This document shows positions 5,421-62,747 of a stretch of DNA of 64,000 bases, piece after piece. The DNA comes from Oehlia diaphana (taxonomy: Eukaryota; Glomeromycota; Glomeromycetes; Glomerales; Glomeraceae): NCBI GenBank assembly GCA_003833135.1, contig QZLH01000429.1, positions 1 through 64,000 on the forward strand, in the 5' to 3' direction. Positions within the stretch are counted from its first letter, which is position 1, and each line of letters begins with the position of its first letter. Position numbers and translations under genes: made by a program. Under the pieces are notes generated by a model. That model was not told the DNA's origin. It made no database searches and saw only the letters and a program-made list of their open reading frames with translations.

Positions 5421-7213
5421 CTAGTGCTGTTGAATTGGAGGTGACGGCATTCCCGTTATAGATTGTGGTTGTAATTGTTGGGGTGCAAATTGTTGATATA
5501 CGGGAGGATATACAGGAGGATATTGTTGAAGATATGAATGCTTATTACCATCAGGTGGAATTTCGACTCCGTTAAAAGCACCTTGACCATCTGGATGATT
5601 GGATTCTCTTTTAATTTTCTGGTTACTCTTTATGCGCTTATAAATTAATGAACATGCTACAATTATTGTTAGAACAACTAGTACTGCTGCAACTGATGTC
5701 CCAACGATTACCATTTTACCCATCGTATATTGTGAAGAAGGTATAACTGTTTCTGTAGGGGTATCTGGTGTTTTTGTTACTATGCTTATCGTTGATGATG
5801 GGCTTAGTTGTTTTGTTCCTGATAAGGGTTCTGAAATCCAGTCAATAATTGGTTTATTTAGGGAAAAATAATAAGTCGAATTATTATTTTTATTTTCAGC
5901 TTGCGGCAAATCCGTCCGTATTCCTAAGTAAAATAATAATAATAAATTAAATAAGATTACACCGACATGAATATATCTTAAAAAAAAACAACTTACCGAA
6001 AGCGAATATCAGAAGTGCTCCTTTTAATGAAGCAGAATGATAAGCAAGTTTTGGTGCGTTAGTACTATTGTGTGGTGGTACCGACCATACTAAAGTAACA
6101 GTATCCAACATAACGAATGTTTCTTTAGCTGGTACATCATATGGTGTATCAGCATTAAAGTACAATCCTCCGTATACATAAATTTTACCATCAACTACAA
6201 AATGAGAGAATTTAATTATTTATAATTTGAAAAAAAAAAGCAAGAGAAAGAAAAAATGAATAGATAATTTACATAAGACAGCTGAATGAGCAGCTCTAGG
6301 TCCTGGAATAGCATTAGTATCTGCAGTTGTAGCTTTCTAAAAAAAAAAGATTAGCAAAATTCCTTATATTAAAACTTTGTGGCGTTAATATTTTGATACA
6401 ATGTTACAACTTACATTTAAAGACCATTTATCAGCGACAATGTCATATTGATAAATCTATTATAACAAATATTCTAAATCATTAAACATATTTCCAAATA
6501 CTTTATTATAAACTTTATTTACATACCACGGTCATTGGAGAAAAAGCATACTGTTGTGATCTACCTCCAATATAATAAATAATTCCATTAACTAATGTTG
6601 CCGTATATCCGGATAATATACCGGGAGAATTAACCACGCTACCAACTTGCCAAATTAAGTTGACCGTGTCAAATATATCAAATTGATTGACATATATTAA
6701 AGGTGAACCAACCGGAGTATACGCTCGCCCGCCAAACAAATAAATTTTTCCTTCATAACTAACAGAATTCCTTGCTACGCGTGTTGGTGGTGCCTTTCCT
6801 TGAATTACTGGTACACTTAATTCATTTGTCTTAGTATCAAACCTATATAAATAATTCGTATTTTTTTCATCATAATGGTTACCTCCTATAATAAATATTG
6901 AATCTTGATTAATGCCTCCGACATCGGCAGCATGTCCGTAAATAATTGGAAATTTTACTTTCAAATCTACCCATGTTAAAAATTTTTCTTTAATATTTAA
7001 ATTAAGATCAAGATAAAAAATATCATTTTCGGGATTTGCTTCTGAATGTGTTTTACTAGGATCATCTCCTCCTATATAATATATTCTATCTTCAATAAGC
7101 ACTGCTACAACTCCCATTCTAGGTTCTGGTATAAATTTCTGTCCATACGCTATTATATTAAATAATTGACTTAATATAATAAGTATCGTATAATAATTTA
7201 AATTTTTATACAT
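5421..7213 (-). CDS. Kelch-repeat single-span membrane protein
   Basis: Five exons: 7213-6527, 6456-6415, 6336-6273, 6194-5997 and 5923-5421. They join in frame with GT..AG introns of 70-78 bp and give 497 residues. The start is the ATG at 7213; the open frame extends further upstream only through a TTG. Residues 1-25 look like a signal peptide (YYTILIILSQLFNIIAYGQ). Then comes a kelch/galactose-oxidase-type propeller with repeated YYIGG, FIIGG, YLFGG and VYGG strands, each followed by a later W (TWVDL, IWQVG, KWSL, VWSVP). A Ser/Thr-rich stalk follows, then a membrane span (MVIVGTSVAAVLVVLTIIVA), a basic stop-transfer segment, and a Pro/Gln/Tyr-rich tail (YPPVYPPVYQQFAPQQ). The layout predicts an outward propeller and a cytoplasmic tail. 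The ligand is unknown. Confidence 0.93.
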
Positions 7214-8434
7214 TATTGATTTTATGTTGATGAGCAAAAACGAAAAAAAAATTGAAGGTGTAAATGGTGTGGAAATTATTGTACTTTCAAGAATTCATTT
7301 GTTTAAATTTCTTTTCACATCATACGGCATGCACAAGTAAAATTTTGTGTCACGCTCTTTTTTTCGTATTACAAAGTGATGATCAGTTACACAATAAACA
7401 ATCACATCTTATTTTAGTATTCTCTATAGATAATATTAAAAGCTAATTTGGAACTACGAAGTAAAGTGTTTGAGAAAATCTAGACTTCTTGATATTTTAA
7501 TTGTTCCAGTGTTTGATATTTATAGTTTCAATTTTAGAATTCAAAATCGGTCTAGATTTAATTAATTTGTAAAATACCATCACCTAAACAATATAAATAA
7601 TGTACTTCGACAAAGAATCTTTGTGATAATAATACTAAATTATCAATTCATTCAGCTGGTGAATCGTGCTTTGAAGAATATATTGGAATTATTGGGAAGC
7701 TTTTTTAAGCGAGAAAATCTGCAGCAATAAAATTGTACGACGTAATGTGTCCGCGCCCATAAAGGAATAAAGGCTTTACATGATACATATTGTTGTTATA
7801 AAAAATCAAAAAGCAATACGTATGCAATATTGTTGCTACTAACCCCGCGTATCATCTATTAGAAAGTAATGATTTACGCATCTCTAGTAAAAAAAAAAAA
7901 AAAATGTATTTATAAAATTGAAATTGAATTATAATAATGTTAAAAAAATCGCTTACATAGAATAGATTCTAATTAGGAGTATATTTATGATGATAAAATA
8001 TACAAATTAGAGTTCGCTTATATTCCGAATACAAAATATTGGAGGAGGATTTTGATAATTGATAATCGAATTCAATATACTGGTTCATATTACAGTAGTA
8101 CAGCAACGACAAGAAAATTTGTCATATGTGTCATTGAGATGAACGCCAGTGAGATGAAACGTCGATGAAACTCTTCAGAATCTTTTCTGAATATAACTTA
8201 TTAAGATTATCTCCTATATAATTAATATTATTCAAAAAATTCATTGATTCACCTGGATATTAATTAATATAATTGGATAGCTCTTTTTTGGGTTTATAGT
8301 GATGATTCTATGCACTATGCATCTTATTGTAATATTACTTTTTATAGAAAATAAATGCAATTTGTGGAACTTAATGCATATTAGATAAATTAATTTCGTT
8401 TTCACGATAATTTTGCTCTTTAATCTTTTAAATC
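7214..8434. other. Intergenic between divergently transcribed genes
   Basis: It separates the divergent kelch gene and the gene at 8435, so it probably holds both promoters. No coding signal or recognisable repeat seen. Confidence 0.55.
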
Positions 8435-19441: not shown

Positions 19442-19640
19442 TTCTAATAAAATCATTTATGGCTTCAACTAATTAAATTAATATATGATTTTTTTTTATG
19501 CCTTTAATATTGTAAATTTTAAATATAAATACAGTTGTTAACTTTCATGCATTTATCATTATTTTTCATAAAATTTTAACATTTTTATAATCATCCCAAA
19601 TTTTCAAAATTTCATTTTATCTTTTATCTTATCTTTAACA

Positions 19641-20651
19641 ATGGTACAACTTGTTGCAGATGTTTTATTATTAATTTTAAACGAATTACGAGAAGATCCT
19701 TCTTCTTTGTATTCATGTGTTTTAGTAAATAAATCCTGGTTTTCATTAGCAATGCCTATATTATGGAGATCTCTTTATTATACCCATAAAAATTCCATAT
19801 CATACAAAAAACTCTTTAATATTATATCATATTTTTTACCATCAGAAAGTCTTTTATTCAAAAATGGATTTAAATTACCTTCAAACCGACAATTAATATT
19901 TAATTATATGATTTTTTTCACTCACATTTCCCCTACTTTTGTTAATGATATGGTGCAATCAGTAACGGAGAAGGAAGCTAAAATTTATGATTATAAAAAA
20001 AATCTGTTGGAAGAAGAAATCTATAAAATGATTTTCAATAATTGTAAGAATGTAAAATGTTTCTACTGGAGTACTAATCACTCCTTATACTTGTTTCCAA
20101 ATGCCGAATCATTTTTCACCAATTTAAGTTCTTTAGGGATAAATTTAACAATCATGAATCCAACAATATTATATGGATTATCTCGGATTTGCCAAAATAT
20201 AGTAACTTTAGAGATTAATGAATGTAATAGAGATTGCCTGGGTTTATTTCATTTTATTAACGTGCAGACTAAACTACAATCTTTATGCTTGCATTTTTGT
20301 GATGTAAGAGAACAACTCATATACTTAAGCGAAGCAATTGAAGGAAAAGCTGCTACACTAAAAAGATTAACAATAAAATCATCTGTTACATCTATTTCTC
20401 CTAAATTTCTTCTCTCATTAAGAAATTTAGAATATTTAGTCCTTAACAATGATGATAATCAATTATATCGATATACTAAGATATGGAGTTACTATTTAGG
20501 CATGGCTGATTTTCCAAAGCTAAGATACTTTGAAATTTCATGCCTAACCAATGTGTTAGAAAATTTCTTGATATTAAAATATACCGACAAGTTTAAATCA
20601 ATGACTCTTTTATTTGACGAATATAAATTAATCTTTGAAAATAATTTATAA
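19641..20651 (+). CDS. F-box protein, short C-terminus
   Basis: A single-exon frame of 336 residues starts at ATG 19641 just after a pyrimidine-rich leader. Residues 2-42 (LVADVLLLILNELREDP, then SCVLVNKSWF and ILWRSL) match the F-box that binds Skp1 in SCF ubiquitin ligases. The rest is leucine-rich repeat-like (LQSLCLHFCDV, TLKRLTIKSSV, LEYLVLNN), expected to bind the substrate. It is a paralogue of the gene at 32857: both share LVxDVLLLI, SCxLVNKxWF, a GxxL..FNYM/FDYM..FF block and EEIYKxIFxxxxNVK. It ends about 140 residues earlier than the 483-residue protein at 61296, so the C-terminal repeats are missing. It may be a truncated copy or a shorter natural form. Confidence 0.9.
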   Translation: MVQLVADVLLLILNELREDPSSLYSCVLVNKSWFSLAMPILWRSLYYTHKNSISYKKLFNIISYFLPSESLLFKNGFKLPSNRQLIFNYMIFFTHISPTFVNDMVQSVTEKEAKIYDYKKNLLEEEIYKMIFNNCKNVKCFYWSTNHSLYLFPNAESFFTNLSSLGINLTIMNPTILYGLSRICQNIVTLEINECNRDCLGLFHFINVQTKLQSLCLHFCDVREQLIYLSEAIEGKAATLKRLTIKSSVTSISPKFLLSLRNLEYLVLNNDDNQLYRYTKIWSYYLGMADFPKLRYFEISCLTNVLENFLILKYTDKFKSMTLLFDEYKLIFENNL

Positions 20652-31010: not shown

Positions 31011-32856
31011 TTTTTGTTTATTGTGCATAAATTTCTTTTTTTTTCTTTCTGCTTTTTCCTTCTTCATTTTGTCTTTCTATATATGGATATTCCGAATATG
31101 TAATAGTGATTAAATATGAGATATTTACATAATAAAGAATAATATGTGATATTTGGTACTGTAATTTCGAGAAAGTTATGCTTCAAAATAAATTTCCAAT
31201 GATTTTTTTTTGTAATATATCTAAAGCCGGTTCGATTGCAACATAAAATTACATGAAGCGTATCAGTATATATATTTATCTGTTATTGTTTAGTGACGTA
31301 ATGGTTTTTATCAGTTATTGATTCCTATAATTAACTACGAGCACCATGTATATTTATTTGTACGCATTTAATATTTGTGATTTCAAATTTGAAATTTGAT
31401 TGGAAAAAGTAAATTTATATTAAAGTAAGTTTTTTTTTTCCAAACCTTTAACCAATCGATCTTTGAAACCGTTAGTACTGAATTGGTTGAATCGAATCAA
31501 TTAAATTAGACATAAACGGAGATGACGTAAAAACACACAAGATCTAGAACTTTTATTACTTATCGCGAGTTCAGTATTGTCACTGCGCAATAGCTAGCGC
31601 AATTCAGCCAATTTCAGCCAATATAGTGAAAATACATATGATCTAAATGACATGTCACAATTGTCACATGCCTGAATTACAAATTGTAACAGCCCTAATT
31701 AAAATACTTCGAATTAAATTTGTAGAACAATATTTACAGAAGTATGTACTGTATGTGAGATAACATGGTCGAATTTACTAATTCATTAAAATCTAGATTC
31801 TTCAATTATTATTCGAGAGTCATCCTTGCGTTAGGAATTCATTCATATTTTATTACGTAAAGTAAAAATATTTACTACGGTGTCACATGATTAAGGAATA
31901 TTTACTGTAACACCCGATCATGATATGCATAGACAGAAATAAGAAGTTTGTTTATTTAATTAATCTTTGTAAAATTTTCTCCTGTGTCACTGGAAATGAA
32001 CAATATATATGTATAGTTTAACCTTTTTTCTTTGTTAAGTTGAAACACTACATGTAACTCGAGTATACCGTATATGTATCATAAAATCCGGATTCTCCGT
32101 AAATATTTGACTAATAACCGCAGTTAAAATGATTGTCATGCATGCGTCTACAATGATAACAATAATAATATATTACAAACGATATCAGAATATTATTCTA
32201 AAACTGGAAACAATGATGAAAATTATGAAATTGCTTATTTTGTCAACTTAATACTAGTCGGATATTAATCGCATGATACACATAACACATTTTCTCTCAT
32301 TTACTGTTTCAAACAATAGTTGGATCTTTCATGCTTTGAAAATATAAAGGATTCCATTTCTTTAAAAAGGATTGAAAAAAATTTATTAATTTTTAAGTGT
32401 ACTACATTTCAGTAATTTATATTAAAAAAAAAAAAGAAATACATGTCCCACGTTGTATATTTGATGATCTACCAAACTATTGTACTGTACAACAAAATTA
32501 AAGTACTTTCGAAAACCTAATTTCAAAATTATAGTCTGACACAAACTATTTTCTTTGAACTCCCAAATTAAAGTTTATTGATTTTATATAAGAAATTAAC
32601 TACTTTCAATAAATCTAAAACGGGAGAAAAAAAAAAAAAAATCATTGTTTAGATGTCGGAGTAAACGAGAACAATCTTTTTTTTTCGATCATTTCGACTA
32701 CTAGTGATTTAGATCGTAAATTTTTTATATAAATATGGATCGTTATTTTGTAATTTTTGATATTTAACATTTTTTCATATCATATTATTTGTTTATACTA
32801 CTATTGTTTTTTCACATTATTCACATACTTTTTATCATATATATCTATTTCTTTCT
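31011..32856. other. Intergenic
   Basis: AT-rich with no gene seen. The last 100 bp before the next start are pyrimidine-rich (tttttcacattattcacata), as in front of the other F-box genes. Confidence 0.55.
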
Positions 32857-34273
32857 ATGGCTCAACTTGTTCCAGACGTTCTCTTGTTAATTTTTACCGA
32901 ATTGAAGGATGATCCCGTTTCTTTACATTCATGCCTTTTGGTTAATAAAGAATGGTTTAACATAGCTACACCTATATTATGGAGACATATTTCATATGCT
33001 TACGACAATCCTTTCCTCCATAATCCAGAATCACGTTCAAAACTTTACAACGTAATAGCACATTTTCTGCCAAATGGTCCGGAAGATCCTTTGCCCCAAA
33101 ATAATATCATATTACCATTGAATAAATTTTCAAGAATGCCAACATTTGATTATATGAGATTTTTCATTCGTATCACGCCATTTTGGATTATAGATATGGC
33201 ACATCTTTTAATCAAGAATAATAGCCACAAAATACAAATTTTGGAAAGAGAAATTTACAAATTAATTTTTAGTAAATATATAAACGTTAAACATTTTTCT
33301 TGGGAAAGTGAAAAAAACTTTTGTGAATATCCAAACGCGCAATCTTTTTTTTCAAACTTACATTCACTTGAAATTAATTGGAAGTTCATAACCAATCAAA
33401 ATTTTTCCAACCTTTCCAAAATTTGTTTAAATATCTCTAAATTAGAGATAAATAATTTTGGTAGAGATAAAGATAAAAAGTCCTTAATTAAGTTTATTAA
33501 AAATCAAAATAATTTGCAATCCTTGTTTCTGGATTTTAATAATAATGTGAAAGATACCTGCACATTATTAAGTAATGTGATCAGAGAAAAAGGTTCAACA
33601 TTAAAAAACATTACTTTACAACCAACACTAAATTGTGTTACACCTATATTTATTCAGTCCTTAGAGAATATATTAGAAATAACTCTTAATAATAAATTAA
33701 ATAAATATATAGATTGGCAAGAATGGGAAAAGTGCTTGAATAATAAAAAATTCCCTCACCTTACACATCTCCAAACTTCATGCTTACCATTTAATATTGA
33801 AAGTTTGATAATCGAAAAATCTGGTGGGAAAATATTAGAGATTGATTCACGTCAATCACTAAAGTTTTTAGATTATACGACCGAAAATAAAAATTTAATT
33901 ATAACGATATCTAAAAACTGCCCTTTATTAACGAGGTTTAACCATAGATTTTGACCATAAAAATTTAGATGAATTAAGCATGATGTTCTCAAATTGTAAA
34001 CAATTGGAGGAAATATATTTTACAACATCAGTTAAAGTATTACCAACTGGAAATGAATTATTAAGAGTTATAAATAATTCCCCGCTCAATAAATTACGAA
34101 ATATTTCATTTAGTGATAAATGGAATTTCTCGATAGAAGGGGTGAAAAAATTCCTAAAAGATTGGAAAAGTAAAAATAGAATTCCAATAAAGTTTACACC
34201 ACATTATCATAGTGAAAGGAATTTTTACTGGACTGCTGAACACGATAAGTTGGTAGAAATGTACCGATACTAG
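32857..34273 (+). CDS. F-box/leucine-rich protein interrupted by one frameshift
   Basis: The first frame (32857-33954, 365 codons) begins MAQLVPDVLLLIFTELKDDP and contains the F-box (SCLLVNKEWF, ILWRHI) and leucine-rich repeats (SLEINWKF, LSKICLNISKLEINN, LQSLFLDF). It stops after RFNHRF. A second frame (from about 33936 to 34273) continues LTIDFDHKNLDELSMMFSNC and ends EHDKLVEMYRY. One extra T in the run at 33934-33936 (aggtttaacc) would explain the break. No intron with GT..AG fits. The intact length would be about 472 residues, close to the 483 of the paralogue at 61296. The break may be a real mutation or an assembly error. Confidence 0.85.
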
Positions 34274-35204: not shown

Positions 35205-35359
35205 CAGTGTATTAAAATTTTATATTACAAATAAATAGGATAAAAAATGATTTTATAACAATAAATTTGAATGAAGAACCAAATATTTGCACAATATTTT
35301 TAATTCCCATCCAAACCCGATGATAAAATTCACATACAGTATGTGAAAATTATATTTTA

Positions 35360-35467
35360 TTACATGACCGTACAAGAAGTTTTAGTAGGTTCAGCCGGAC
35401 CTTCAGTGACTCCAGCAGTTGCAATAGATGGAATAGATAATTTAATGATAACTTCAGTTTGATTCAT
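35360..35467 (-). CDS. CaaX-box peptide gene, copy A (35 residues)
   Basis: It starts MNQTEVIIKLSIPSIATAGV and ends KTSCTVM. The last four residues Cys-Thr-Val-Met form a CaaX box; Met at the end favours farnesylation. After prenylation such peptides are trimmed and carboxyl-methylated, as with fungal lipopeptide pheromones. Compared with copy C the coding part has substitutions and one whole-codon (3-nt) length difference. The upstream 150 bp differ by +2, +1 and +1 nt indels. This supports translation from this ATG rather than from a longer Lys-rich frame. There is no signal peptide, as expected for non-classically exported prenyl peptides. The role as pheromone or signal is an inference. 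Confidence 0.55.
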   Translation of the reverse strand: MNQTEVIIKLSIPSIATAGVTEGPAEPTKTSCTVM

Positions 35468-36381
35468 TTTATTAGGAAATTTAAAGAATTTAATTGATTT
35501 TAAGAGTTTGTTAATTGTTATCAAAGTTTTTTTCTTTTTTTTTTTTTTGATTGAATTTAAAAGCTAATTTTTTCTTTTTGTCTTTATAAGAAAATTTTTT
35601 TGTTTATTTATACCTTTTTCATAGATTTCAAACCCTTTTGAGTTGAAAGATTTTTTAATATTGTGCATCTCCGTGTTTAGAACATAATAGCAATTGATCT
35701 ACAATACGCCAAATTTTGCGGTTCACACTTGAAACAAGCACCTAAATTTTATACATACAATAGATTTTCATATAGACAATACTTTTTTAGTATTATTTTT
35801 CATCATGATTCTGTGCGACTGTGTTAACAATATTTAATATGAGCATGGTCTCGAAAAAGGTAATAATTTGGAAGTACAAGTAGCTAAAGATAGCAGTCAC
35901 TCCGGAAAAAATTATCTTTTTGACCCAGTACGACATCCTTTTTTGACCCTCCTATATATGTAATACAGTATAAGCGTGTCAAAAAAATAACACGAAGAGG
36001 GTCAAAAAGGTAATTTTTGCGTCCTCCGTCTTACAATAGCTGCCATGATCATAAAAGACTGCGGTCCTACGTGAACCTTTTGTATGTACTGTAGGACTGT
36101 AGGACGGAGAGACTGCTATCTTTAGTTACTTGTACTTCCAAAATTATTGACTTTTTCGACAAATATATGTAAGAATATAATAAAATTGCATTTTAACATA
36201 CTGAATTTTAAAAATATTCTTAACACAGAATCATGATGAAAAATAAATTAAAAATATTGTCTAAATGAAAAATCTATTGTATGTTGTTATACGTAAAAAA
36301 GAAAAAAACTTTGATAGTTCTTTTTACATAACAATTAACAAACTCTTAAAATCAATTAAATCCTTTGAATTTCCTAACAAA

Positions 36382-36490
36382 ATGAATCAAACTGAAGTTA
36401 TCATTAAACTATTTATTCCATCTATCGCAACTTGCTAGAGTCACTGAAGGTTCGGCTGAACCTACTAAAACTTCTTGTACGGTCATGTAA
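36382..36490 (+). pseudogene. CaaX-box peptide gene, copy B (broken)
   Basis: It starts MNQTEVIIKLFIPSIAT as in copy A. Around 36431-36437 an extra T and a G-to-A change create a frameshift and a TAG stop. The remaining part in the other frame still encodes VTEGSAEPTKTSCTVM and the shared stop. The poly-A/Lys-rich upstream part seen in A and C is shortened here. This copy cannot make the full peptide. Confidence 0.7.
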
Positions 36491-37318
36491 TTAAAATATA
36501 ATTTTCACAAATAAAACTTTGTCCGTAATTTTACATGCTCTACAAGTTACCAGTTAACTTAGGGTAATCTTTGGTTTTTTTTATATATTTTTTCAAAATG
36601 ATGAATTTGCAAAAATGGCATTTAAAACCTTCTTTGGTATTCTAATTAAACTTGTTCAGAAGGCAAAAATACATATATTTTGCAAATTTTAGGAACGTAT
36701 AAACTATAAAGTATATGTTAAGTTTTATTTGAAAGAAAAATATTTTTTTTTATCGCGAAATGATCGGCAAATTGTCACGTGATCGAAGAATTTTTTTGTG
36801 TAGTTGTAGGATACTGGTATCCCCCGGTATAACGTACATTTTTTCTATTTAAAAATATTAAACAATCTTCAATATAAAGCATTATATTACCATAATTATT
36901 CCTGATATTATAGGAAAATATAATATTAAAAATTAATTTTGAAATCTCACTGTTATATTAATCGCAGATCCGTAGGTCAAGAGTGCTATCTTCGACAAAT
37001 ATATGTTGAATGGTATTTTAAGACAATGCATATACTGAATTTTAAAAAATATTGTTAACACAGTATCATAATGTAAAAGTATTTTCTAAATTAAAAATCT
37101 ATTGTATATTGTGATTGTTAAAATTATACAATATTAAAAATCTTTCAACTCAAAAGTTTGAAATCTATGAAAAAGGTATAATAAACAAAAAATTTTCTTA
37201 TAAAGACAAAAAGAAAAAATTAGCTTTAAATTCAATCAAAAAAAAAAAAAAGAAAAAAACTTTGATAACAATTAACAAACTCATAAAATCAATTAAATTC
37301 TTTAAATTTCCTAACAAA

Positions 37319-37429
37319 ATGAATCAAATTGAAGTTATTATTAAACTATCTATTCCATCTATTGCAACTGCTGGAGTCACTGAAAGTCCGGAGGGTGTTG
37401 GTACTAAATCTTCTTGTACGGTCATGTAA
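37319..37429 (+). CDS. CaaX-box peptide gene, copy C (36 residues)
   Basis: It encodes MNQIEVIIKLSIPSIATAGV followed by a variable stretch (TESPEGVGTKS) and the terminal SCTVM. The first 20 residues and the CaaX box match copy A at all but one position, while the segment between is changed (GPAEPTKT against SPEGVGTKS). In fungal pheromone precursors the part next to the CaaX box is the mature signal and varies between variants. The frame is open for 68 codons upstream, but with no ATG and with indels between copies, so 37319 is taken as the start. Confidence 0.55.
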   Translation: MNQIEVIIKLSIPSIATAGVTESPEGVGTKSSCTVM

Positions 37430-37575
37430 TAAAATATAATTTCACATACTGTATGTGAATTTTATCATCGGGTTTGGTTAGAGATTAAAAATATTATGCA
37501 AATATTTGGTTCTTCATTTTAATTTATTGTTATAAAATCATTTTTTATCTATTTATTCGTAATATAAAATTTTTA

Positions 37576-40353: not shown

Positions 40354-41887
40354 ATGAATTCACTAGTTGTTCTTTATAAAATACTTCGTAAATTTCATAG
40401 AGAATTAAAGCGTGTAGAAAAGTTTTTCTTGTATACATATATTATAGATATGGTCACATATTGTTTACTGTTCATTGGCACTTTAATTTTAACAGGAGAT
40501 TTCGAAGTTAATTTAATACAATTTCCAATATTATTTTTTCCTATATTATCAGGAATGATTATGGTAATATAATGTTTTATATTTGAATATTGTTTAATAT
40601 ATTTAATACTAGTTATTAATTTATTTTAATATTTGTAGTTCTATGGTAAGACCGTTTACCACGGATTAGCATTCCTTGGTGTACATTCGTTTCCTATCTT
40701 TGGAGGAATAGCTTATTTTTACACTCAACGTTTTAATTGTAAAGACAATACTATCGCATGTAACGCAAATAATCCAATCTTTTATGTAGGTGTGGGTTTT
40801 TTAATTGCACTTGTAGTTATATTTCAATCGCTATATACATTATATGTATATTTATTATGGAAGAAAAGGTAAATGATAACATCTTTTAATTATGTAACTA
40901 AAAAAATAATAATAATAATTTTAAAATTTATATTTTTTTTCTTATTTTAGTATATGGCCTTTAGTATATGAATTCAAACATTCTAGACATGATGAAATTA
41001 AAAGTAAATAATCCGTTTATTCAGCATATATATATATATTTAGTTTCTAAATTCTTCTTTTTCTTTTGCTTAGAAATGCATGCGATCTATGAAGTTCAAT
41101 TCCCACTGTTCCATGCGCAGATAATGATAGTTGGGCTATGGATAACTGCTTATTTAATAGGAATAATTGGTATAGACATAATGGAACTAGCAAAAAGACG
41201 AATTAGTATTCGAAGATTATTTTTCAATTATCAAGTGCCAATCAACGTAATATTTCTTTATTACTCGTTTTTTATGCTCAAAGGTGTAAGTACATTATTT
41301 TCTTTTTTGTTCTTTAATATAATGTAATTATACTAAACAAATTTGACAAATATATTTAGGTGAGGGATGAGAAACACTACTTAATGTTTATTGTTTACAT
41401 CGGAAACATTATTCAAGCCTTATTATTATATTTTGATTTGTCTAGTTACTGCAAACAATATAATTTATTGGCAAAATTAACTTCCGAGTTAGAATGCTAT
41501 CATTATTCTATGCAACTTAATATGTTTTTTTTATACGGTAATTTCACATAATTTATGTGTTTTAAATTAGTAAATTAATATAAAAGTTATACTAATAATT
41601 CTTTTTTAAAAAAATATATATATATAATAGCATGTTTATGCTGGGTTATTTTAGCGCTATCAACATGGAACACCATTAGGTGTCATAAAAATTTCAATAG
41701 ACATATGGCATTTTATAGTATGTAAATTTTATTCTTCATTCTCATTATTCATTTTTTTCTCTTCAATACTAATAATTAATCAACTCCTTAAATAGTTCAA
41801 TATGAGCCACCTCCTCCAGAATTTCAATCCGGGAGAAAATTAGTAATAAGAGAATCAGTTGAGCCAAAGCCTTCACACATCGTATAA
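40354..41887 (+). CDS. Multi-span membrane protein, seven exons
   Basis: Exons 40354-40563, 40639-40868, 40951-41003, 41074-41285, 41360-41537, 41631-41717 and 41796-41887 join in frame to 353 residues, with GT..AG introns of 70-93 bp. Seven or eight hydrophobic segments are visible: YIIDMVTYCLLFIGTLIL, FPILFFPILSGMIMVFYG, HGLAFLGVHSFPIFGGIAYF, VGVGFLIALVVIFQSLYTLY, IMIVGLWITAYLIGIIGI, VPINVIFLYYSFFMLKG, LMFIVYIGNIIQALLLYF and ACLCWVILALSTW. A short hydrophilic tail (QYEPPPPEFQSGRKLV) follows. The first 25 residues are basic and probably cytoplasmic. Topology suits a receptor or channel, but no STE3 or other receptor signature is visible. It lies 2.9 kb from the nearest CaaX peptide gene. Confidence 0.87.
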
Positions 41888-52669: not shown

Positions 52670-53694
52670 CAGTCAACTCTCTCTAAGTGCACCCCCCTTA
52701 GGACCAGACATGAACGTGCACTTATAGAGGGTGTGTACTTATATAATTTTATAAAATTTCATGTGATATATAAAAATTATACTTTNNNNNNNNNNNNNNN
52801 NNNNNNNNNNNNNNNNNNNNNNNNNNNNNNNNNNNNNNNNNNNNNNNNNNNNNNNNNNNNNNNNNNNNNNNNNNNNNNNNNNNNNNNNNNNNNNNNNNNN
52901 NNNNNNNNNNNNNNNNNNNNNNNNNNNNNNNNNNNNNNNNNNNNNNNNNNNNNNNNNNNNNNNNNNNNNNNNNNNNNNNNNNNNNNNNNNNNNNNNNNNN
53001 NNNNNNNNNNNNNNNNNNNNNNNNNNNNNNNNNNNNNNNNNNNNNNNNNNNNNNNNNNNNNNNNNNNNNNNNNNNNNNNNNNNNNNNNNNNNNNNNNNNN
53101 NNNNNNNNNNNNNNNNNNNNNNNNNNNNNNNNNNNNNNNNNNNNNNNNNNNNNNNNNNNNNNNNNNNNNNNNNNNNNNNNNNNNNNNNNNNNNNNNNNNN
53201 NNNNNNNNNNNNNNNNNNNNNNNNNNNNNNNNNNNNNNNNNNNNNNNNNNNNNNNNNNNNNNNNNNNNNNNNNNNNNNNNNNNNNNNNNNNNNNNNNNNN
53301 NNNNNNNNNNNNNNNNNNNNNNNNNNNNNNNNNNNNNNNNNNNNNNNNNNNNNNNNNNNNNNNNNNNNNNNNNNNNNNNNNNNNNNNNNNNNNNNNNNNN
53401 NNNNNNNNNNNNNNNNNNNNNNNNNNNNNNNNNNNNNNNNNNNNNNNNNNNNNNNNNNNNNNNNNNNNNNNNNNNNNNNNNNNNNNNNNNNNNNNNNNNN
53501 NNNNNNNNNNNNNNNNNNNNNNNNNNNNNNNNNNNNNNNNNNNNNNNNNNNNNNNNNNNNNNNNNNNNNNNNNNNGCACGGTGTTAATAAAAAGGATGCA
53601 CTTAACTACTAAGTCCCAAGCTCGGGACTGAGCTTGGGAGTGTACTTACAGGTGGAGTGTACTTATAGAGGGTGCGCTTAGAGAGAGTTGACTG
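52670..53694. mobile_element. pogo/Tigger-like (Tc1/mariner) element with an assembly gap inside
   Basis: The ends CAGTCAACTCTCTCTAAG plus TGCACCC and (minus strand) the same 18 bases plus CGCACCC are inverted and flanked by TA (52668-52669 and 53695-53696). Subterminal variants of gtgcacttatagagggtg are iterated at both ends. A hairpin cccaagctcgggactgagct plus tggg lies at 53612-53635. TA insertion and CAGT-starting termini fit pogo/Tigger elements. Whether the unsequenced centre holds a DDE transposase cannot be told. Confidence 0.82.
52786..53575. other. Assembly gap (790 N)
   Basis: The run of N lies wholly inside the inverted-repeat element above. The gap size is as given and may be only an estimate. 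Confidence 0.99.
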
Positions 53695-59481: not shown

Positions 59482-61295
59482 TGAAAATCTTTGAAAATTT
59501 GAAATTATTTAATAATGAATATATAAATAGATTTTTTTAAAATTCATAAAAATTTTTTCTTGATTGTGCATCGTTCATATGGTTATTCATTTTTAAAGAG
59601 TAATTTCATGAAATTATTATTATGATAAATAATTTTATTATATTTTGTAATGATTATTTCTTTAATATATAAATATAAAAAAATTATTCAAGTTATTACT
59701 ACTACTACTTTTAATATAATTTTTTATGTCATTCCTTAAATTAAAAAAAAAAATAAGTATTTATGATTAAAAGTTTATTTTATTTATTTATTGTATAAGA
59801 CTAATTTTAACCCAGGGTGATTGAGCGATTTAACCTACTAGTAAATTGTATATAATTATATAATTTTGCCCAAATTTTCAAAAAAAAAAATGTAAATTAT
59901 GATTACAATTAAAATTGAGAAAACTTGGTCATTGTGCTCTTAATAAATAAAATCTATATAAAGCGAAATGAATAATAACACAAATAATTTTTTTTTTTAA
60001 GAAAAAAAATGATTGTTATAAAATATAAATTTTAGAGGGGTAATTTAACCCAGGTTATTTAACCCAGGGGGCAAGTTAGCAAAATTCTTATTTATTTATA
60101 TTTATTTATATTTATTAATTAATTAATTAATTAATCTCTAAACACGTTTAATTATCAATAATAACGATAAATTTTCATGAAAAAATTTATATGTATGAAG
60201 TGGCCAGTTTACCCGTTTGGCTACGTAAACGGTTAGTCGGTTAGTACAATTTTTTTTAAAAAAATTTTCTTTGTGGCTGATTTGTTAGGTTGATAATCGA
60301 TGACGGATCTACGTTTTCATAAATAATATAAATAGGTTGTATAAATGTGGCACCACGTGACTGTAAAATATGTAGATTAAATTTTTATGTTAAATAAAAT
60401 AAATTAAAAACTGTTACCTGGTTATAGTCATTTTTTATGTTAATTACAAAATTCTCTTGTCATTTTGCATATATCTTGTATACAAATTTTTAATAAAAAA
60501 TTTTATCCGTTATTTTTGTAAAAACTGAGCCTTTCACGGATCCATTCACGGAAATGTAAATAATTGCGGATACATGAGCCTTTTACGGAAAAAAGAAAAA
60601 GTATCGATTTTTTTACAGGGCTAACGTGCAAAACAATCGGTAGTCCTTTGAATTGAGCATTAATACATTCAATATTCAAATATACAGAAGGATAACTTAA
60701 ATTACGAAAATATTTAATGATATGTTAAAATTGTTATTTAATACTTCTTTCTTTCTTTTTTCATTAAACAAAAAAAGAAATTTATTAAAACATTTACTCT
60801 AAAGTGAAATCTAAACATTTTTAAATTCTAAATAATTCGTCACTTGCGGATACATTTATTTATAGGAATAATTATTAAATATAAAATATGCTTATACTAA
60901 CACCGACTTTTATCTGGTTGGCATCCAGAATTCAGGCGCGTCGGTCGGCTATAAACAGCCCGTTAGGGAAGTTCCATCATCATCCAAGGAATATCAATTG
61001 GCTTTGAAATATCAAACGGCTTTAAAAATTGATGGAAATTTTTATTTCAATTTTGATCTAACGATAAAAAAAAAAAATTTTAATTGGATTGTTCTACACA
61101 AAAGATCTTATAATATCAGATGTGAAATACCAAGCCAACACTAAGCCAACTTGAAAATAGTAGTATGACACATGACTATTATGTTCAATGAAACTTTATA
61201 AAAAGAACGACTTTTCGTCTCATTTTTATTCAGTTAACGAACGACTTTCTTTTTTTTTAAAAAAAAAAATTATTTGTTATATTTTAATAACAACA
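59482..61295. other. Intergenic with short direct repeats
   Basis: taacccaggg-like pieces occur at 59809-59818 and twice at 60043-60070. gagccttt-cacgga/tacgga recurs at 60528 and 60577, and gcggatacat at 60568 and 60846. These may be ends of worn transposons. The frame upstream of 61296 (from an ATG at 61188) is low-complexity and not counted as coding. Confidence 0.45.
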
Positions 61296-62747
61296 ATGCA
61301 TCAACTCCCCGTTGATTGTTTGGATGAGGTTTTTGAACATTTAGCTGATGATGAATTTACTTTACGTTCATGCATTTTGGTAAATCGACTTTGGTGCAAA
61401 GTTTCCGTAAGGATTTTATGGGGAAATGCCTGGAATTACAATTTTTCAGATTTTAGAACTTTAATTGCTTGTCTCCCAAGCGAGTCGAAAAAAATTTTAT
61501 CCAATAATGGAATTATGATTTCAACCCCAACTTTAGAAATTCCAACTTTCGATTATGCATCATTTTGTAAAGTTCTACCAGTTAAACGAACTTATAAAAT
61601 GCTTGAATTACTTATTGGAAAGCATATTGGAAACCATTCCATTTCTCCACAAAATTTATTTATTAAAGCTCATATAACGACGCAGGAAGTATTCAAAATG
61701 TTCATGAATCAAATAACTTCTTTAAAGATTTTAGATTATCTACACTATCAAGAAATTGGTTTTACTTCCTACCCTAGAGCAAGGAATTGTTTAAAATATC
61801 TCTCAGAATTATATTGTAGTTCAGATACTTCCTCCGATTTTTTTTATCAATTATCTCAAATCTGTCATAATATTTCATTATTAGACATCACAGTTGTAGA
61901 TCGTCTTCCTTGTGGGTTGATAAATTTAATTTCTGTTCAACAAAGTTTAAAATGTCTTAATTTATCAATATATTATGTTCCGACAGATTTATCTTTATTA
62001 TTGACAAGAGTTCCCAATACATTGACTAAATTACGACTTTATGGAGGTAGTGATGGTATTTCATTATCATTTATAATTAGGTTAACAAATTTACAAGAAC
62101 TACAATTGTCATATGAAGTTAAAGAATGGTTTAAAGATTTTGAAATTTTACAATACACTATTTTTCCAAAGTTACAAATTTTAAAATTTAAATATGAAGT
62201 TCCTAATTGGAAATTATTAATAAAATTCTTGGAACATAATGGAAAAAATTTGAAAGAAATCTATTTTTGTGATTATAGTATGGTTTATAATAATAATTCA
62301 TTAAATTTATCAATTGCTAGAAATTGTCCAATTCTTAATAATCTTTCGACCGGAATTAAAAGTAATGAATTGGAAACATTAAAAATAATTGTTGAAAGTT
62401 GTCACAATTTAAAAAGTATTAAAGTTTGGTGTGGTGGACCATTTATAAATGAGAAAGATGCATTAGAAATAATTTTGGAATATTCAAAAAATATTGATGA
62501 AGTAATATTATATTATCATTATGATGCACAATTTGAAATATTCCCGGAAGAATTAGATTCCATTTTTATAAATTGGTCAAATCATATATCACAAAAGTCA
62601 ATTTCATTGATTCTTATTACTGATACTTGTATTGTGTCAAGCTTAGACAAAAATTATAAGAATTTGAAAATCATTGAAAAATATATTGATTTAGGTATTA
62701 TTAAGAAATTTGAAATTACAGATTATGAAGATTTAGAATATATTTAA
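61296..62747 (+). CDS. F-box/leucine-rich repeat protein, full length
   Basis: The ATG at 61296 is preferred over the in-frame ATG at 61188. It is followed at once by the F-box (MHQLPVDCLDEVFEHLADDE, then SCILVNRLWC and ILWGNAW), and the 36 extra codons are low-complexity. The product has 483 residues. After the F-box come a linker (PTFDYASFCKVLP) and a series of leucine-rich repeats (KCLNLSIYYV, TKLRLYGGSD, LQELQLSYEV, LQILKFKYEV, LKEIYFCDY, LKSIKVWCG) to near the C-terminus. Such proteins link targets to Skp1-cullin ubiquitin ligases. The length suggests it is the most complete of the four F-box or F-box-like genes in this window. Confidence 0.92.
   Translation: MHQLPVDCLDEVFEHLADDEFTLRSCILVNRLWCKVSVRILWGNAWNYNFSDFRTLIACLPSESKKILSNNGIMISTPTLEIPTFDYASFCKVLPVKRTYKMLELLIGKHIGNHSISPQNLFIKAHITTQEVFKMFMNQITSLKILDYLHYQEIGFTSYPRARNCLKYLSELYCSSDTSSDFFYQLSQICHNISLLDITVVDRLPCGLINLISVQQSLKCLNLSIYYVPTDLSLLLTRVPNTLTKLRLYGGSDGISLSFIIRLTNLQELQLSYEVKEWFKDFEILQYTIFPKLQILKFKYEVPNWKLLIKFLEHNGKNLKEIYFCDYSMVYNNNSLNLSIARNCPILNNLSTGIKSNELETLKIIVESCHNLKSIKVWCGGPFINEKDALEIILEYSKNIDEVILYYHYDAQFEIFPEELDSIFINWSNHISQKSISLILITDTCIVSSLDKNYKNLKIIEKYIDLGIIKKFEITDYEDLEYI

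Follow-up and report, generated by a model that had tools for sequence, protein, structure and literature searches.

Mating in arbuscular mycorrhizal fungi is a long-standing question, the lineage having long been thought asexual, and the cluster of short reading frames with CaaX ends at 35.2-37.6 kb of the DNA stretch analysed here (64,000 nucleotides, hereafter the window) raises the question of whether these fungi encode precursors of lipopeptide pheromones. According to the account given in PMC3834313 (2013), arbuscular mycorrhizal fungi possess one STE3 (a receptor), STE6 (an exporter) and the downstream cascade minus STE5; as far as that account goes, no gene for an a-factor- or alpha-factor-related peptide pheromone was found in them, and its authors call for new approaches. 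KEX2-processed repeat proteins resembling alpha-pheromone precursors are described from R. irregularis (PMC6339444), so these fungi have other candidate peptides too. In the published description those peptides, which belong to a related fungus, are candidate secreted signals like the present ones, but they carry a signal peptide and KEX2-cut repeats, whereas the present ORFs are single-unit and finish with a CaaX end.

The initial annotation had recognized two intact copies and one broken copy of a 35-36 residue peptide, and both the peptides and their coordinates were borne out:

35360-35467, minus strand: peptide precursor copy A, intact, 35 amino acids, SCTVM end, translation MNQTEVIIKLSIPSIATAGVTEGPAEPTKTSCTVM
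36382-36490, plus strand: peptide precursor copy B, with a frameshift and early stop, and a CTVM remnant in another frame
37319-37429, plus strand: peptide precursor copy C, intact, 36 amino acids, SCTVM end, translation MNQIEVIIKLSIPSIATAGVTESPEGVGTKSSCTVM
35239-35633, minus strand: duplicated unit of copy A, 93% identical to the copy C unit and 89% identical to part of the copy B unit
37156-37549, plus strand: duplicated unit of copy C

Copies A and C are oriented oppositely, each within a duplicated unit of ~395 bases, and a palindrome (TTCACATACNGTATGTGAA) lies directly downstream of both (35326-35353 and 37438-37465) and is missing or degraded at the remaining peptide copies. A dispersed repeat occupies 36522-36800, between copies B and C; a query with 36520-37060 returned 46 genome matches, mostly to this repeat part.

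Searches of the 108.8-Mb assembly (1672 contigs; the window sits in contig C427) at both the DNA and protein level placed the peptide family on at least four contigs, with five intact and two broken copies, including three intact, diverged paralogues on two contigs other than C427:

Contig C427: copies A, B and C
Contig C273: copy D, intact, MNTEVIIKLSIPSIATAETTEKPVDPVKSNCTIM
Contig C613: copy E, intact, terminus GGGKSCTLM
Contig C613: copy F, intact, terminus GGRGSCTLM
Contig C524: copy G, truncated, without CaaX

The intact copies span 34-41 amino acids and display the same layout: the leader is fixed, the core hypervariable and the end C-T-[VIL]-M, which takes the form CTVM, CTIM or CTLM in all five. 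Eighteen residues are invariant among them, most within the first 22 positions, and the leader closes at an invariant TE followed by G, S, K, R or N. All length changes fall in the core, except for one codon. An ER doublet is present only in copy E, and no cleavage doublet is common to all five. The CaaX cysteine, on whose conservation the annotated family depended, is invariant in all five intact copies of this one genome, as are the T and M of the end.

When the 108.8 Mb were searched for the KLSIPSI codons of the leader with a degenerate DNA pattern, five matches resulted, namely the five intact copies (two matches for the reversed pattern, used as a control); this result, together with the diverged intact paralogues ending in CT[IL]M, places the family beyond chance. 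CaaX-like ends occurred in six of 700 ATG-initiated ORFs of 28-60 amino acids in 219.7 kb of fetched sequence, most stretches of which had been chosen for the peptide family or its neighbour gene; five of these belonged to the peptide family and one was unrelated. The many dispersed copies expected of a transposable element or repeat-borne ORF were not found in the assembly for the peptide unit (at least four contigs), unlike the neighbouring repeat, which gave at least dozens of genome matches. No peptide homologue was detected among 5.8 billion predicted proteins, with candidates limited to 0.55-1.75 times 41 amino acids in length.

Selection on the short frame had been proposed from the indels between copies A and C, and the indels were as described: gaps of 1, 2, 2 and 1 bases upstream, a single 3-base gap in the coding part and one 1-base gap downstream. 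With 11 substitutions between the two copies this argument is thin on its own, and the case for selection is carried by the paralogues. Over the ten pairwise alignments of intact copies, all 13 coding gaps were multiples of three, compared with 17 of 63 in the flanks (9/35 upstream and 8/28 downstream); these pairwise counts share history and correspond to ~4 independent coding indels. Substitution rates between copies, which the initial annotation had suggested comparing, agreed in part. The pN/pS ratio (Nei-Gojobori, summed over the ten pairs) was low in the leader (0.31) and the CTaM end (0.16) and reached 1.38 in the core, but the leader value was not specific to the sense frame: the leader gave 0.41, 0.31 and 0.45 in three other frames (all with stops) and 1.21 in the sole other open frame, which is antisense. 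Since similarly low values occur in some of the other frames, leader pN/pS alone is weak evidence. So too are single pairs, because in a placement test of leader plus CaaX (six of the ten pairs) a value below 0.01 was reached by A-E alone, against 0.11-0.17 for the remaining five. Gap length in threes is a stronger sign of frame selection than pN/pS.

These data also bear on whether there is a meaningful product at all, or whether a duplicated non-coding unit has simply inherited its open frame and CaaX end from a recent ancestor. Two of the seven copies are broken, the low leader ratio is shared with other frames, most single-pair tests are non-significant and predicted proteins contain no homologue, all as such a history would have it. 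Against it stand the contrast in gap lengths between coding part and flanks, the constancy of the CT[VIL]M end across five copies that have diverged and, for the more distant pairs, a leader that is better conserved than the DNA upstream of it, and we judge this history very improbable. The sequences represent a real gene family, very probably one of CaaX lipopeptide precursors.

The initial annotation had treated the locus as one of peptides only. A second gene 3 kb away makes it a module of peptide and membrane protein; this gene beside the peptide locus is new here. It starts 2.9 kb past copy C, and a relic of its first exon lies between copies B and C:

40354-41887, plus strand: membrane-protein gene (candidate receptor), seven exons, 353 amino acids, ~8 predicted helices
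40354-40563, 40639-40868, 40951-41003, 41074-41285, 41360-41537, 41631-41717 and 41796-41887, plus strand: its seven exons
36849-36935, minus strand: relic of membrane-protein exon 1

The gene is intact and spliceable, with six predicted GT-AG introns of 70-93 bases read from the sequence. An R. irregularis relative (P0001, 353 residues) shares 91% identity with its product. When 5.8 billion proteins were searched twice, 35 and 41 relatives came back, and every organism name listed with them is a Rhizophagus (irregularis, clarus or diaphanus). Four proteins assigned to Rhizophagus diaphanus in public sources (P0018, P0025, P0030 and P0032) match translations of contigs C273, C613, C1618 and C524 when compared visually, with long stretches in which no difference was noted, which makes R. 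diaphanus the most likely identity of the genome. Pfam assigned no family to the membrane protein (the best value among 27 relatives was 0.0064, for an ABC-transporter-associated family, which is below notice); none of these 27 relatives matched STE3 at E up to 1, and no GPCR profile was found for the relatives. No solved structure matched by sequence, and fold searches gave no credible match. Hydropathy and charge indicate ~8 helices, while the AlphaFold models are all-helical and poor (mean pLDDT 52.6 and 47.3).

The membrane-protein family comprised 13 matches on 11 contigs in the genome search, to which exon-wise comparison added a relic (exons 5-7) on C613. All four peptide contigs carry a membrane-protein gene, and seven of the 11 membrane-gene contigs are without a peptide. 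All seven peptide copies, including the broken ones, lie 1.6-4.9 kb from a membrane-protein member or relic (C427: 4.9, 3.9 and 2.9 kb; C273: 2.85 kb; C613: 2.5 and 2.1 kb; C524: 1.6 kb; the exon-1 relic at 36849-36935 is omitted from this count). The closest member is the exons 5-7 relic for the C613 peptides, with intact-looking copies 15.0 and 9.5 kb off, and a broken copy for the C273 peptide, with an intact-looking one 10.7 kb off. For a random site, the probability of falling within 11 kb of a membrane-gene member is 0.28%, and four such clusters would arise by chance at ~6e-11 assuming independence, which duplicated pairs do not have. Gene order and orientation vary among the loci. Compared with the sequence retrieved near the other loci, the 244 window ORFs of at least 50 amino acids yielded clear relatives (E 1e-6) only for the peptide units, the membrane gene and its relic, and the recurring unit is therefore a two-gene module; one F-box-like ORF of the window had a weak match near other loci. 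Contig C524 offers a single case of joint decay, its peptide and its membrane gene both appearing broken. Repeated linkage is explicable by duplication of a linked pair, without any functional tie.

A block at 32193-32383 has ten other matches in the genome, six of them near membrane-gene members or relics (two each on C273 and C613, and one each on C524 and C1618); these six usually lie within ~1.1 kb upstream of the membrane gene, and in the window the block lies 8 kb away. This block may mark a lost membrane-gene copy or be a regulatory piece. Three loci (L043, L044 and L045, on C1602, C194 and C504 respectively) carry a distant branch of the membrane protein with 43-46% identity to P0001. 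No CaaX-ended ORF was found beside them, and this branch may have another kind of partner.

Pairs that are dispersed, rearranged and partly decayed, with a variable peptide core, are also what would be seen if a selfish or allorecognition cassette maintained itself through its own spread, for instance one in which the membrane protein protects against a killer peptide. The few copies, the frequency of membrane genes without a peptide and the spread of these genes across several Rhizophagus species run counter to such a cassette, which we find hardly probable at all.

The topology that we assign to the membrane protein has eight helices with both ends inside, the strongly basic N-terminus being placed inside together with the C-terminal tail, and two paired-Cys loops then falling outside. 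One predicted outside loop is basic, contrary to the positive-inside rule, which is a mild argument against this arrangement, and the arrangement differs from that of a standard seven-helix receptor. Among six near relatives, identity averaged 86% in predicted inside segments and 55% in outside loops (Mann-Whitney p ~5e-10, with residues treated as independent). Variable outside and fixed inside loops form the pattern expected of a receptor whose inner coupling is shared and whose ligand contacts diverge, although other surface proteins could give the like.

CaaX ends mostly belong to intracellular proteins, and the peptides could accordingly be prenylated microproteins that stay within the cell, anchored to the membrane, with the linked membrane protein as their binding partner or regulatory target. 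Besides this general use of CaaX ends, the linkage itself and the want of a cleavage doublet common to all copies would suit such microproteins; however, the most variable part of the peptide is the core right before the Cys (pN/pS 1.38), and in the membrane protein the matching variability sits in segments predicted to lie outside. We regard an intracellular role as distinctly unlikely.

Alternatively, lipopeptide pheromones might act via a single unlinked STE3, the linked protein being an accessory of maturation, export or uptake. STE3 (PF02076) was matched on C1422 only, in two pieces that jointly span the domain, the second with two internal stops, perhaps an intron. This match, the missing receptor signature of the linked protein and its ~8 predicted helices, a number also known from some CaaX-processing membrane enzymes, are in keeping with an accessory role. 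On the other hand, diversification of the predicted outside loops would be surprising in a processing enzyme, several differing cores would all have to be recognised by a single STE3, and no CaaX ORF of 20-90 amino acids was found in the 10 kb around STE3; on balance we think this arrangement unlikely. Elsewhere in the assembly, an ICMT-family match lies on C1027 (E 3.2e-28), a weak support given that the profile also matches five of the 14 genomes used as controls (bacteria plus one archaeon), and the sole PF05920 homeodomain match is on C1265; neither contig carries a peptide copy.

We come back to the explanation that we prefer and hold with middling confidence: the peptides may be precursors of prenylated a-factor-type signals that have co-duplicated with a membrane protein specific to this lineage, their probable receptor. 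Once transcribed, as they presumably are, the precursors would be made along the yeast a-factor/mushroom pheromone route. Their CT[VIL]M ends would undergo farnesylation, trimming and methylation at the Cys, the constant leader would be cut off after the invariant TE, and the released product, a variable lipopeptide of ~10-16 residues, would then be exported. The co-travelling multi-pass protein is the leading receptor candidate, and a receptor role is the most likely one for it because the gene pair recurs in rearranged surroundings and the predicted outside loops diversify while the inside loops are fixed. The module would serve self/non-self recognition or mating. Of the lipopeptide pheromone family first proposed, the conserved small CaaX precursors are well supported and the order of fixed leader, variable core and fixed CaaX fits; farnesylation and secretion are steps that we infer, and a pheromone role is our best guess.

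Yeast a-factor likewise derives from a very short CaaX precursor with a constant N-terminal part, and its receptor is STE3. The present family shares this precursor form and a genome that contains STE3, but here STE3 sits on another contig without a CaaX ORF of this kind beside it, and no sequence similarity to a-factor is claimed. At the basidiomycete B3 locus of Pleurotus eryngii, as described in PMC4136793, precursors of 57-61 amino acids have a Cys fourth from the end, ER doublets and mature products of 9-15 residues, and basidiomycete pheromone genes are interleaved with STE3 receptors. To the extent of that description, the resemblance to a B/PR locus lies in short CaaX precursors, in several copies near multi-pass membrane-protein genes and in a variable pre-Cys region whose putative 10-16 residues overlap the 9-15 found there. 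The differences are the shorter precursors (34-41 versus 57-61 amino acids), the restriction of the ER doublet to copy E among the five, a linked protein that is not STE3, and loci that are paralogues on four contigs in a different fungal phylum. No STE3-type receptor gene was found on the peptide contigs, and the family is therefore not a member of an STE3-type PR locus; judged on anatomy, it would work like a PR-type system.

If the preferred explanation is true, a lipopeptide ligand would here have a receptor-like partner that does not belong to the STE3 family. The peptides would then be possible missing signals of arbuscular mycorrhizal fungi, offering short, synthesizable candidate ligands together with an unrecognised candidate receptor family. 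A bolder conjecture, possible although we lean against it, is that Rhizophagus carries dispersed, diversifying ligand-receptor cassettes, each with an a-factor-type prenylated peptide and its own non-STE3 receptor, and that the different cassettes of one genome form a multi-specificity recognition code used in cryptic mating, in nuclear compatibility or when hyphae fuse.

The remainder of the window contains several further features. Positions ~52780-53580 read as N (a gap or masked sequence) and give runs of X in all frames. Another multi-pass membrane ORF at 13778-14455 matches the chemoreceptor family Sri, although below threshold (E 0.013). F-box-like ORFs occur at 32761-33951 (above the Pfam cut-off), 61176-62744 (below it) and 19572-20651 (called by resemblance). 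A Kelch-repeat ORF and its neighbour occupy 5424-6008 and 6518-7294, both on the minus strand, the adjoining ORF apparently spanning the membrane once and having a tail rich in proline.
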